A stretch of 64,000 bases of DNA from an uncultured Ruminococcus sp. (GTDB taxonomy: Bacteria; Bacillota; Clostridia; Oscillospirales; Ruminococcaceae): assembly GCF_946415235.1 (NCBI RefSeq), contig NZ_CAMKRR010000005.1, forward strand, positions 46,604-110,603. Direction: 5' to 3'. The stretch's first letter is position 1. Each line of letters opens with the position of its first letter. The translations under genes and the position numbers were made by a program. The notes beneath the pieces are model-generated. The model was not told the DNA's origin, did no database searches, and worked only from the letters and a program-made list of their open reading frames with translations. Below, in pieces: positions 9,572 to 30,568 of the stretch.

Positions 9572-9578
9572 TAGTTCT

Positions 9579-9690
9579 GTATCTTCGGGGTTAGGTGAAA
9601 GTCCTGACCGGCAGTATAGCCTGCGAGCCTTATGGGTTGATTCGGTGAGATTCCGAAGCCGACGGTAAAGTCCGGATGAAAGAAGATGAG
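9579..9690 (+). promoter_or_regulatory. FMN riboswitch (RFN element)
   Basis: Conserved blocks: gtatcttcggggttaggtgaaagtcctgaccggcagta, agcctgcgagcc, gattcggtgagattccgaagccgacggtaaagtccggatgaaagaagatga; located before ribD. Confidence 0.96.
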
Positions 9691-9717
9691 CCGCACTAAG
9701 TGCAGTATATGACTTCA

Positions 9718-26409: not shown

Positions 26410-28008
26410 TTATTTCAGTCTTTTTTCCTTTTTGTTTCCGAGCCCCGCAAGAACTGCAAATGTCAGTATTACAAGAACTGTAATGAGCAGTATCGCCCAC
26501 TTCGCTTTGAATCTTATTGCAGGAAAGAGCAGCAATCCCACTGCAGCTGCAATATAGGTCAGGAAACGGTTGCGTATAAGGACTCTTTTTCTTTCATAAG
26601 CCAGTCTTTCTTCCTTTTCGGACTCATGACGGCGGCGTATCGCATCAAGCTCGTTTTTCTCCTCATCTTCTATCTTTTCCTGCTCCTTTGCAAAGACAGC
26701 GTCGCGCACAGCGCTTACAAAGCGCTCATAAACCGTAGATATCCTGAGCTTATCATCTCCGTCGGCATATCCGACGGCTTTTTTTATGTTTTCGCCGAGC
26801 ATACTTCCGAGCTGTGCTTCAAATACCTCGTCGTCGGTAAAATCAAATCCGTACCGAAGTATATAATCATCAGCGAAGCTGCTAACCACTTCCTCAAGGA
26901 GCAGATCATTTCCGCTGCGGCAGCCGTTGAACGCAAGGAACTTCACAAAATGCGCCTGCCAGCACTCGGGAGCAGCATCAAGTATCATGTCGCTGTACTC
27001 CTCCGCAGCTTCAAAATCCTCGTCCGCAAGGAAAATATTCATTCTCCTTATGAGCTTTTCGGGAGTTGAACGCGCCGCAGCACCATGCTCGATATGATCG
27101 TCCTCCGCAATATCCGTGTTTGTCTTGATATACCTTATAAGCTCGGTAAGGAAGCTCATTTGCGAAACGTCCATTATTTTATGGTCGGACAGCTCCGCGG
27201 GAACATCTCCCGTATCCGTATCCTTTATGCAGGTGATAAGGAGCTTTCCGCTGTCCTTCATGGCAGCTGCCGCACATCTGCTCCATTCGCTCTTGAAGCC
27301 GTGCGCTTTAAAGCTTTCTTTTTCCGCACTTACAACAATGAGCACCGCCGCACAGTTTATGGCGGCACTTATATACGCTTCTGCGTCCTTTGACGCAATT
27401 TCACCTATAGTTTCGGGAGAATAGAAAACTCTCAGCCCCTCTTTGGTGAGCTGTTCATATATCTCACCTGCAATCAAACTGTCATCCGAAGCTTTTCCTT
27501 CATCGTCTGTTAAGCGGCAGCAGATATAAGCGTCATATCGTACTCCCGTACCTACACGCTCCAGCATTTCCTTTCTGAGCATTTCGATGGCGGATACCTC
27601 ACGGCGGTAGAATGCGCTCTGCTCCGAATCCGCAAGGCTCAGCGCCGTACAGCAGTCCTTGTCGTCTCTCAGAGAAGTGCTGTACGCTCTGTGACAGACA
27701 GGCAGCTTCATTCCCGAAACAGCCTCTTCCTCGTAAAGTATGCCGCAGCGGCACAGGACCTTTCCCCAGTAGCCCTCGGGCTCGTCAGGGAACTCCTCAC
27801 AGAGCTGGGAAAACAGCTTCTCGGCGCCCTCGAAATCCGTCTTGAAGCGAAGTCCGCAGGCCCTGTTGTATATCTCCGTGTATTTGTCCCCGTAAAGCTT
27901 CGGAACGGTCTGACGCGAGCCGCAGCACTCACATTCGCATATGCTTTTTTCCTCACATGGCGGAAGGAGCTTTCCGCACATTTTGCATACATATCCCACA
28001 GACTTCAC
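26410..28008 (-). CDS. Zinc-ribbon / TIR domain / C-terminal TM protein
   Basis: N-terminal CKMCGKLLPPCEEKSICECECCGSRQ; TIR-like YDAYICCRLTDDEG...EIYEQLTKEGLRVFYSPETI...DAEAYISAAINCAAVLIVVSAEKESFKAHGFKSEWSRC; C-terminal hydrophobic pair. Confidence 0.8.
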   Translation of the reverse strand: MKSVGYVCKMCGKLLPPCEEKSICECECCGSRQTVPKLYGDKYTEIYNRACGLRFKTDFEGAEKLFSQLCEEFPDEPEGYWGKVLCRCGILYEEEAVSGMKLPVCHRAYSTSLRDDKDCCTALSLADSEQSAFYRREVSAIEMLRKEMLERVGTGVRYDAYICCRLTDDEGKASDDSLIAGEIYEQLTKEGLRVFYSPETIGEIASKDAEAYISAAINCAAVLIVVSAEKESFKAHGFKSEWSRCAAAAMKDSGKLLITCIKDTDTGDVPAELSDHKIMDVSQMSFLTELIRYIKTNTDIAEDDHIEHGAAARSTPEKLIRRMNIFLADEDFEAAEEYSDMILDAAPECWQAHFVKFLAFNGCRSGNDLLLEEVVSSFADDYILRYGFDFTDDEVFEAQLGSMLGENIKKAVGYADGDDKLRISTVYERFVSAVRDAVFAKEQEKIEDEEKNELDAIRRRHESEKEERLAYERKRVLIRNRFLTYIAAAVGLLLFPAIRFKAKWAILLITVLVILTFAVLAGLGNKKEKRLK

Positions 28009-28101: not shown

Positions 28102-28854
28102 TTACAGTCTGTACACATATTCGGCATTGCCGTGCATGAAAAGCTCCCGCTGCTCCTTTGTTATGTGAAGGCTTTCCGCAAAGCGCAGATGCGCTTCCTG
28201 TGAACAGCTGCCGAAATCAGAACCGAAAATAAACCTCTTTGGCATGGCATTGATCGCTTTTTCAATGGAAGCTTTTATTATCGGGCACTTTTCAGCATCA
28301 TCGGCCACGGAGGAAGTATCAAAGAAAACATTCCCACATTCTCCGAGGACCTCAAAGCAGTGCTCCGTTTCAGGGTAAAAGCAGTGGCAGTAAACAAAAG
28401 TGTTTTCCCTGCGTTTATTCGCAAGCTCCCGCATCTTTTCGGGAGCGGCATACTTATTATTATCCCAGCCAGTATGGAAAAGTACGGGAACTCTGAACTC
28501 AGCAGCGAGATCGTACACAGTAAAAAGCGCGCTGTCGGTGCAGTAAAAATGCTCATGTCCCGTATAGACCTTCAGCCCGATGATGTCACCGCTTTCAAGG
28601 AGCTCCCTGCAATACCTCAGCTGCTCCTCAAAGCTTATGAGCGGACTTATTCCTGCAATAACCTTAATAACGCCGTCGCCCTTAAAAAGCTCCGCACAGT
28701 CCCTTACAGAGCCGATAACGCTCTCGGTCTCGGAATCCGCAATAACAATACCTCTGTCAACGCCGTTTCTGCTCATTTCATCAAGCAGAGCCTGCTTTTT
28801 TGCAGGAAAGTCGGAAGGATCGACGGGAAGATGCAAATGTGAATCAATTACCAT
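28102..28854 (-). CDS. Amidohydrolase-family (TIM-barrel) metal-dependent hydrolase
   Basis: MVIDSHLHLP; ...LKVYTGHE...VLFHTGWDN; FIFGSDFGSC. Confidence 0.8.
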   Translation of the reverse strand: MVIDSHLHLPVDPSDFPAKKQALLDEMSRNGVDRGIVIADSETESVIGSVRDCAELFKGDGVIKVIAGISPLISFEEQLRYCRELLESGDIIGLKVYTGHEHFYCTDSALFTVYDLAAEFRVPVLFHTGWDNNKYAAPEKMRELANKRRENTFVYCHCFYPETEHCFEVLGECGNVFFDTSSVADDAEKCPIIKASIEKAINAMPKRFIFGSDFGSCSQEAHLRFAESLHITKEQRELFMHGNAEYVYRL

Positions 28855-28883
28855 AAAGATACTCCTTTCAGTTTCAAGGTGTG

Positions 28884-28910
28884 AAAAAAAAACCGCAGAT
28901 CACTCTGCGG
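28884..28910 (-). terminator. Intrinsic terminator upstream of the amidohydrolase
   Basis: Minus strand ccgcag-agtgat-ctgcgg followed by a T run. Confidence 0.85.
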
Positions 28911-29085
28911 CAGCTTACGATTATATGCAGAGCGATCAATTTTACAGCACAATAAGACCGCTTCCGCAGTCACTGCACATTAAATTCTGATCGTCCGCAC
29001 TTTCCGACACATACGCTTACCGCTCCTGCGGCAGCCGTAACTTCGGGAGTATCACTTCCCTTTCGATTATTCGCCCTATACTTAC

Positions 29086-29114
29086 ATATTACAACAATAT
29101 CCTTCAAAAGTCAA
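29086..29114 (-). promoter_or_regulatory. Promoter TTGACT-N17-TAATAT reading toward amidohydrolase
   Basis: Minus strand ttgact 29114-29109, taatat 29091-29086, spacer 17. Confidence 0.7.
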
Positions 29115-29266
29115 GTTTTTTCTCCATGAACCTTGCTATTTTATTTATTATATGTTATACTTATAAATGGTTTTTCGAGCATATTTGACATAATAAGTGC
29201 AAAAATAAAGTATATCGGCTTATTCCGACATTGGTCAGCCAATTTAAAAGAACGAAAGGTATAAAG

Positions 29267-30568
29267 ATGAAGTTTAAATATTTTTTCCCCATATTAGCAG
29301 CAGCCTGCCTGCTTACAGCCTGCGGCGGCAGGAAAACAGAAACAGACAAAACTGCGGCAACAAACGCAGTGACAACATCGGAGTCCACTTCAAAGGCAAC
29401 AGTTACCACCACCAAGGTCACGACTACCTCCGCGACCACAACAAAAAAGATCGACCCGCCCGCCGATCTTGTACTGAAAGGGCTTGATTCGGTGGAGGTC
29501 TATTCTGAAGTCAGCTTTGACTCGTTCATCACCGAAAAAAATGTTGAACTGAAGGACGGAAGTACACTGCTCAACACCTCAGATACGGGAGTTTACGAGG
29601 TCGATATCCCCTATACCTACAACGGCGGCGAGTTCACCAAGAAGCTCACATATGCCGTTGTTGATACCACAGCACCGACTATCATCAATTCTGGCTGGGA
29701 ACCAAACCACAAGATCGGCACAGACTTTGACCTCAGCAAATATGTCGGTTATGCCGATAATTTCGACAGATACCCCTCTCTTACCTATACGGGAACAGTT
29801 GATCCCGATACAGCAGGCTCATATCCTCTTACCGCTACAGTAACGGACTGCTTCGGAAATTCAACATCATGGGACCTTACGATAAACGTGGTCGAGGAGA
29901 TACCTAAGCCTGTGGACGATAATCCCCGTGTGAACTACAGCGACTTCATACAGACCTATCAGGGAGACGATAAACGTTTCGGAATAGATGTGTCGGTATG
30001 GCAGTCCGACGTGGACTACAACGCTGTGCGCGACGCAGGCTGCAGCTTTGTAATGATACGTGTGGGATATTACTACAGTGAGGTAACTCTTGACGATTAT
30101 TTCAAGGCAAACCTCGAAAAAGCCACTGCCGCAGGACTTGATGTGGGAGTATACTTCTACACAACAGACAATACCATTGACGGAGCCCGCGAACACGCCC
30201 GCTGGATAGCCGAGCAGCTCGGCGGACACAAGCTTCAGATGCCTGTTGCCTTTGACTGGGAGGAGTTCGCAAACTTCCAGAAATACGGCATGAGCATAAA
30301 GGACATCAACGATATATATGAAGCCTTTGCGGACGAGATAAGGAAATGCGGCTACACTCCCATACTCTACAGCAGCAAGAACTTCCTCAACAACATCTGG
30401 AGCGAACATTCAAAATCCATAGCTCCCGTATGGCTGGCGCACTTTGTCGACTCCACGGATTACACAGGAGAGTACGCAATATGGCAGGCGAGCGCCTACG
30501 GGCATATCCCCGGCATCAACGCCGATGTTGATATGGATATCCAGTATATGAACAAGTCCATATCATAA
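29267..30568 (+). CDS. Lipoprotein with GH25 lysozyme-like domain
   Basis: Lipobox CLLTACGG; GIDVSVWQSDVDYNAVRDAGCSFVMIRVGY...LDVGVYFYTTDN...MPVAFDWEEF...PVWLAHF...YAIWQASAYGHIPGINADVDMD. Confidence 0.9.
   Translation: MKFKYFFPILAAACLLTACGGRKTETDKTAATNAVTTSESTSKATVTTTKVTTTSATTTKKIDPPADLVLKGLDSVEVYSEVSFDSFITEKNVELKDGSTLLNTSDTGVYEVDIPYTYNGGEFTKKLTYAVVDTTAPTIINSGWEPNHKIGTDFDLSKYVGYADNFDRYPSLTYTGTVDPDTAGSYPLTATVTDCFGNSTSWDLTINVVEEIPKPVDDNPRVNYSDFIQTYQGDDKRFGIDVSVWQSDVDYNAVRDAGCSFVMIRVGYYYSEVTLDDYFKANLEKATAAGLDVGVYFYTTDNTIDGAREHARWIAEQLGGHKLQMPVAFDWEEFANFQKYGMSIKDINDIYEAFADEIRKCGYTPILYSSKNFLNNIWSEHSKSIAPVWLAHFVDSTDYTGEYAIWQASAYGHIPGINADVDMDIQYMNKSIS

Follow-up and report, generated by a model that had tools for sequence, protein, structure and literature searches.

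A conserved structured leader RNA upstream of amidohydrolase and GNAT acetyltransferase genes in Ruminococcus, a candidate riboswitch-like transcription attenuator

The window analysed here, a stretch of 64,000 nucleotides from an uncultured gut Ruminococcus sp. of the R. flavefaciens type, carries on its minus strand an Amidohydro_2 (PF04909) gene encoding 250 aa (28102-28854, with its ATG at 28854), preceded by a Shine-Dalgarno sequence, GAAAGGAG, at 28862-28869. Further upstream on the same strand lies a sigma-70-type promoter, TTGACT-N17-TAATAT (29114-29086), recognised by its sequence and by same-place matches in other leaders. A leader of about 190-200 nt with no convincing ORF separates this promoter from an intrinsic terminator, GCCGCAGA-GUGA-UCUGCGGU, whose stem (28911-28892) runs into a tract of nine T (U9 in the RNA) ahead of the amidohydrolase ATG. 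This layout bears out the original prediction, which had also described four alternating complementary segments; they are present where it placed them, CCGCAG at 29031-29026, CTGCGG at 28969-28964, CCGCAG at 28910-28905 and CTGCGG at 28898-28893. The whole structured element to the U-tract (28885-29080, minus strand) matches a covariance model with 210.6 bits and is homologous in 12 genomes. Diverging from the leader is a GH25 (lysozyme-type) gene (29231-30568, plus strand), a homologue of which flanks the leader in each of the relatives examined on that side (L002, L003 and L004), and the AT-rich spacer beside it is conserved in several relatives. Downstream of the amidohydrolase, a 532-aa protein (26410-28008, minus strand) has apparent C-terminal membrane segments and a weak TIR_2 match below the cut-off; its homologues follow the amidohydrolase in relatives.

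This AT-rich region has many promoter-like sites (14, against 7.4 expected) and terminator-like sites (13, against 5.7), so a promoter and a terminator alone are not striking. Judged by sequence comparison, the leader stands above chance through its conservation, with eight orthologous leaders keeping promoter, core and terminator.

A plain DNA search found the leader in genomes of the same genus only, with just short chance matches beyond it. A first covariance model, built from three copies, was run on 125 genomes of the genus and detected 11 full-length leaders together with two shortened ones, L035 and L081, both of them real. The Ruminococcus copies come mostly from R. flavefaciens strains. 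A second model, of 11 sequences, added a full-length copy (L108) in genome G635, from another genus of the family, at 115.8 bits; this copy played no part in building the model, and it is the only one among 20 genomes of its genus. No further copy emerged from 345 genomes across the order in a coarse search that scored seven candidates per genome and that weak homologues may escape. Likewise, when 84,980 species were scanned with a pattern and the matches scored by model, Ruminococcus copies alone were confirmed; the pattern had been fitted to those copies and would miss ones like that of G635. The 12 full-length copies, at most one per genome, comprise eight of the amidohydrolase type, three of the GNAT type and the one in the other genus, a narrow distribution over Ruminococcus and one related genus. 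An apparent second copy in the genome of the window, L026, scored 10.6 bits, as expected by chance; covariance-model matches at about 20-30 bits (L036, L037, L047, L082, L083 and L109-L117) were terminator matches or chance, and pattern matches on viral contigs or outside Ruminococcus were not homologues by the covariance model. Unrelated loci of the genus (L082, L036, L047, L037 and others) carry a near-identical terminator, of the CCGCAGAGNGATCTGCGG type.

Eight copies, all in Ruminococcus, precede orthologues of the window amidohydrolase. Three others (L078-L080) lie after spoVG and before the gene for a 160-aa GNAT acetyltransferase, and the leader-type TTGACTT promoter was not found in front of them. 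Extra non-homologous DNA sits between spoVG and the RNA in L079 (1331-1500, genome G362) and is absent from L078 and L080. The copy in G635 has its own promoter, TTGACA-N17-TATTCT, and is followed by a GNAT gene, an overlapping amidohydrolase orthologue whose product is 49% identical to the window protein, and a gene for a 484-aa protein. By eye, several GNAT-like domains are apparent in this last protein (L148:7446-8900), directly after the operon. All full-length copies are co-directional with, and about 30-65 nt before, an amidohydrolase and/or a GNAT gene, in three contexts and two genera. The GNAT-clade genomes hold no amidohydrolase orthologue, the amidohydrolase-clade genomes hold distant GNATs only (identity at most about 38%), and the RNA was not found with other GNAT homologues of the family. 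In G032 (G032:C23:46995-48214), the amidohydrolase and GNAT genes are also adjacent, here without the RNA, which argues that they form a functional pair and speaks for a shared pathway. The RNA tracks two linked genes, together or apart, and therefore shows the pattern expected of a cis-regulator.

Over positions 29079-28875, the RNA is predicted to be more stable than all 200 of its dinucleotide shuffles (z = -4.74). The consensus fold comprises, in order, P1, P2, P3, P4 and the terminator, all on the minus strand, and begins after a conserved single-stranded 5' segment, GGAAGUGAU (29059-29051), whose GUG is invariant in 12 of 12 copies. In P1, the 5' strand ACU-c-CCGA (29050-29043) pairs with UCGG-aa-AGU (29007-28999), with covariation of the outer pairs from A-U to U-A and from U-A to G-C. 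Nested inside P1 is the P2 hairpin, UACGGCUGCCGC-AGGA-GCGGUAAGCGUA (29039-29012), with both-side changes at three pairs. P3 joins GCGGACGAUCA (28998-28988) to UGAUCGCUCUGC (28938-28927), with the consensus GCGGA-c-GAUCA/UGAUC-g-CUCUGC, and the P4 hairpin, UGACUGC-GGAA-GCGGUCU (28972-28955), also contains covarying pairs. The terminator is kept in all 12 copies. A closing helix, P0, in which ACAAGGCG pairs with CGCCUUGU downstream of the terminator, reaches significance in 10 of the 12 copies; it is lost in G337 and in the window copy, where the position of its 3' half (28883-28875) has decayed to ACACCUUG. The P0 halves covary as a helix would, with ACAAGGCG/CGCCUUGU replaced by ACAAGGCA/UGCCUUGU or GCAAGGCG/CGCCUUGC. 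Across clades, the near-invariant unpaired nucleotides include the GUG, the P1-internal AA and a bulged A, and the P1/P2 core is likewise kept.

Between 95.4 and 96.3% of the cells in helices are paired across the alignment (96.3% with 11 sequences), and the covariation score of the 11-sequence alignment was reached by no shuffle. In the 12-sequence alignment, both-side changes occur in 12 pairs and 32 cells, counts that were reached neither in 500 tree-simulated alignments nor in 400 simulations that started from a paired root and kept the observed number of changes per column; the covariation rests on 12 full-length sequences from about four lineages. Covariation in homologues, for which the original prediction had proposed looking, is therefore present beyond both phylogeny-aware nulls. 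Among the eight amidohydrolase leaders, the core is about 95.5% identical and the whole leader 84%, and across the same eight loci the amidohydrolase gene is 43% identical at fourfold-degenerate sites and 69% in its protein. By these comparisons, the leader belongs to a real structured RNA family under purifying selection on its fold.

The four complementary segments had been read as an attenuator in which pairing 1:2 would leave the terminator (3:4) intact and pairing 2:3 would prevent it. Perfect complementarity in the window copy speaks for such a scheme; however, segments 1 and 2 sit in the separate, covarying hairpins P2 and P4, and pairings 1:2 and 2:3, kept in 71% and 86% of cells, show neither covariation nor an excess over shuffles. 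The full 6-bp 2:3 pairing is available in four of the 12 copies, and its 4-bp CUGC:GCAG nucleus is possible in 11 of 11 aligned copies. Hence the structured, terminator-ending leader stands and its four-segment architecture does not; we consider the latter highly improbable as the switching mechanism.

A better switch candidate than these pairings, by sequence conservation, is CUCUGC at the end of P3 (28932-28927) with the complementary GCAGAG inside the terminator (28908-28903). The former is invariant in 12 of 12 copies, the pairing is possible in all 12, and the two proposed antiterminator halves lie 11-21 nt apart. Neither half changes on the tree; the P3 5' partner strand and the linker do. 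Because it is invariant, the pairing draws no support from covariation, and its case is weakened by 6-nt complementarity not being rare and by the recurrence of the terminator sequence elsewhere in the genus. The terminated state is better by about 3-11 kcal/mol, with a computed antiterminator probability of about 0 in clade 1; in a nascent-chain ensemble, this probability reaches about 0.2-0.5 in two GNAT-clade copies only. Since the energies favour the terminated state, read-through would have to depend on an effector or on kinetic folding.

Of 19 amidohydrolase orthologues that share at least 65% identity, eight have the leader at full length, two have it cut by deletion and nine lack it, the upstream region of G342 having been judged by covariance model only. 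The other clade-1 leaders have TTGACTT and a -10 element at the matching place, as do several orthologues that lack the leader, and at several leaderless loci this promoter feeds the RBS directly. In the cut leaders (L004/L035 in G006 and L081 in G360), P2-P4 are deleted between two GCTGCCGCAG direct repeats. The promoter and terminator hairpin are retained there and the U-tract is interrupted (TCTTTG), as expected after loss of a switch, although this is suggestive only. On the protein tree, in which G635 is a deep branch, several leader changes are needed and several forks are weakly supported; an old leader, repeatedly lost, appears to fit this tree.

The metal-site residues of the amidohydrolase, H6 and H8 (HxH), K95, H127, H157 and D213, are invariant in 16 homologues. 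Its AlphaFold model (pLDDT 93) is closest to LigJ hydratase, to amidohydrolases of the ACMSD/aromatic decarboxylase type and to uncharacterised relatives. The nearest solved chain to the GNAT protein is YsnE of B. subtilis. The amidohydrolase is thus of ACMSD/LigJ fold and the acetyltransferase YsnE-like, and neither likeness gives a substrate.

A search of Rfam 15 (4227 families) returned no match at gathering score and nothing plausible over the window element up to E = 10, and an Rfam E-value scan of the divergent homologues L075, L077-L080 and L108 likewise gave no plausible match over the element. The earlier impression that the leader belongs to no known riboswitch class agrees with the Rfam search, which had been suggested along with it. 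The open-access papers searched yielded no description of the leader RNA, nor of an RNA regulator of such kind in Ruminococcus; absence from both sources falls short of proof of novelty. Of the RNAs described in those papers, the closest in function, with what may be a similar way of working, is Gd4v, an orphan variant of the validated guanidine-IV riboswitch that precedes GNAT genes, among others, in gut bacteria (PMC9788692). Both are riboswitch-type leaders with a Rho-independent terminator at their end and GNAT among the downstream genes; in guanidine-IV and Gd4v, two hairpins are joined by a pseudoknot and the 3' hairpin is the terminator (PMC9788692). In contrast, the leader described here is about 200 nt long, with a P1/P2 domain, a P3/P4 rod and a separate terminator, and falls outside that definition; it also has an amidohydrolase partner gene, which is not mentioned in PMC9788692. 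Since the Gd4v pseudoknot architecture is lacking, the leader would represent a new class within a known kind, the terminator-controlling leader RNA. The window itself holds a member of one terminator-controlling riboswitch class, an FMN riboswitch (RF00050, 113 bits) at 9577-9691 on the plus strand. Like terminator-controlling riboswitches in general, the new leader opens an operon with a conserved core and then an intrinsic terminator, but it is unrelated to them in sequence and has so far turned up only in Ruminococcus and a single related genus.

Elsewhere, attenuators often control GNAT genes. This background favours control of the leader terminator by a protein or by the ribosome, that is, by an RNA-binding regulator or by antibiotic- or translation-dependent attenuation of a resistance-like GNAT operon. 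The leader resembles leader-peptide and antibiotic-responsive attenuators in preceding, with its terminator, a possible resistance-type acetyltransferase gene; in addition, an unpaired GGA(N)GUGAU is Shine-Dalgarno-like and can pair with the 16S tail, and short GTG-initiated frames begin at a matching place. However, the Shine-Dalgarno-like run touches the GTG, and the pairing of GGANGUGAU with the 16S tail is no better than in shuffled leaders. In a leader-peptide test, no reading frame kept its start, stop and sequence from clade to clade, nor is any short ORF conserved in start, length and sequence. Conservation lies instead in the RNA structure, with selection on a fold that includes invariant unpaired bases, and we regard control by a protein or ribosome as unlikely. 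An antisense role towards 23S rRNA was also considered for CUCCCGAAGUUACGGC, which we take to be complementary to a conserved part of domain IV; it was rejected, the sequence not being kept in the GNAT-clade or G635 copies and the window genome offering no 23S gene for comparison.

The original prediction had allowed for a stand-alone sRNA of about 190 nt, with the gene transcribed only by read-through or from elsewhere. A promoter and a terminator do bracket the RNA, the energies favour the terminated state, and nine orthologous loci have lost the RNA and kept the gene. Yet the constant place of every full-length copy 5' of its partner genes points to cis-control, the GNAT-clade RNA follows spoVG without the leader-type promoter, and in leaderless orthologues the matching promoter drives the gene directly, such that gene context disfavours the sRNA and makes it a somewhat poorer prospect than control by a protein or ribosome. 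The inverted repeats ACAAGGCG...CGCCUUGU, which bound the element in 10 of 12 copies, and its presence or absence at one position among orthologues would also suit a MITE-like mobile or repeat-derived element carrying the RNA. We consider such an origin very improbable: no genome carries more than one copy, the copies keep to the same two partner genes, the fold is under strong purifying selection and the repeats covary as a helix. The second-genus copy, ahead of the operon that joins both genes, is consistent with descent and later losses.

The conserved RNA fold, the conserved terminator and the fixed linkage to two linked genes are supported by comparison. On this sequence evidence, we favour the reading that the leader is an orphan riboswitch-like transcription attenuator, a new cis-regulatory RNA class, with a probability of roughly 0.55; it most likely decides whether transcription stops or continues into the gene, and riboswitch function is probable. 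Transcription control, the antiterminator, the sensing of a ligand and the direction of the response are inferred along the following lines. A transcript starting near 29079 would fold into P1/P2, the P3/P4 rod and the terminator. By default, CUCUGC would be held in P3, the terminator would form and transcription would stop before the gene. Alternatively, the outer five pairs of P3 would open and CUCUGC would pair with GCAGAG of the terminator 5' half, a blocked terminator then allowing transcription of the amidohydrolase gene (of the GNAT gene, or of both, in relatives). An effector would be needed for read-through, this direction of control being our proposal. The conserved P1/P2 core, with its unpaired GUGAU and AA, may act as the sensor; its likeliest target would be a small molecule connected with the GNAT/amidohydrolase pathway. 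More tentatively, and at somewhat less than even odds, we suggest a new riboswitch class for a gut metabolite of a GNAT-amidohydrolase pathway, switching by strand exchange between P3 and the terminator. New riboswitch classes are seldom found, and every one of them points to a metabolite and a pathway that had gone unrecognised; if the leader is such a class, the partner genes and the covariation alignment would allow ligands to be screened straight away, in a gut genus that degrades fibre.
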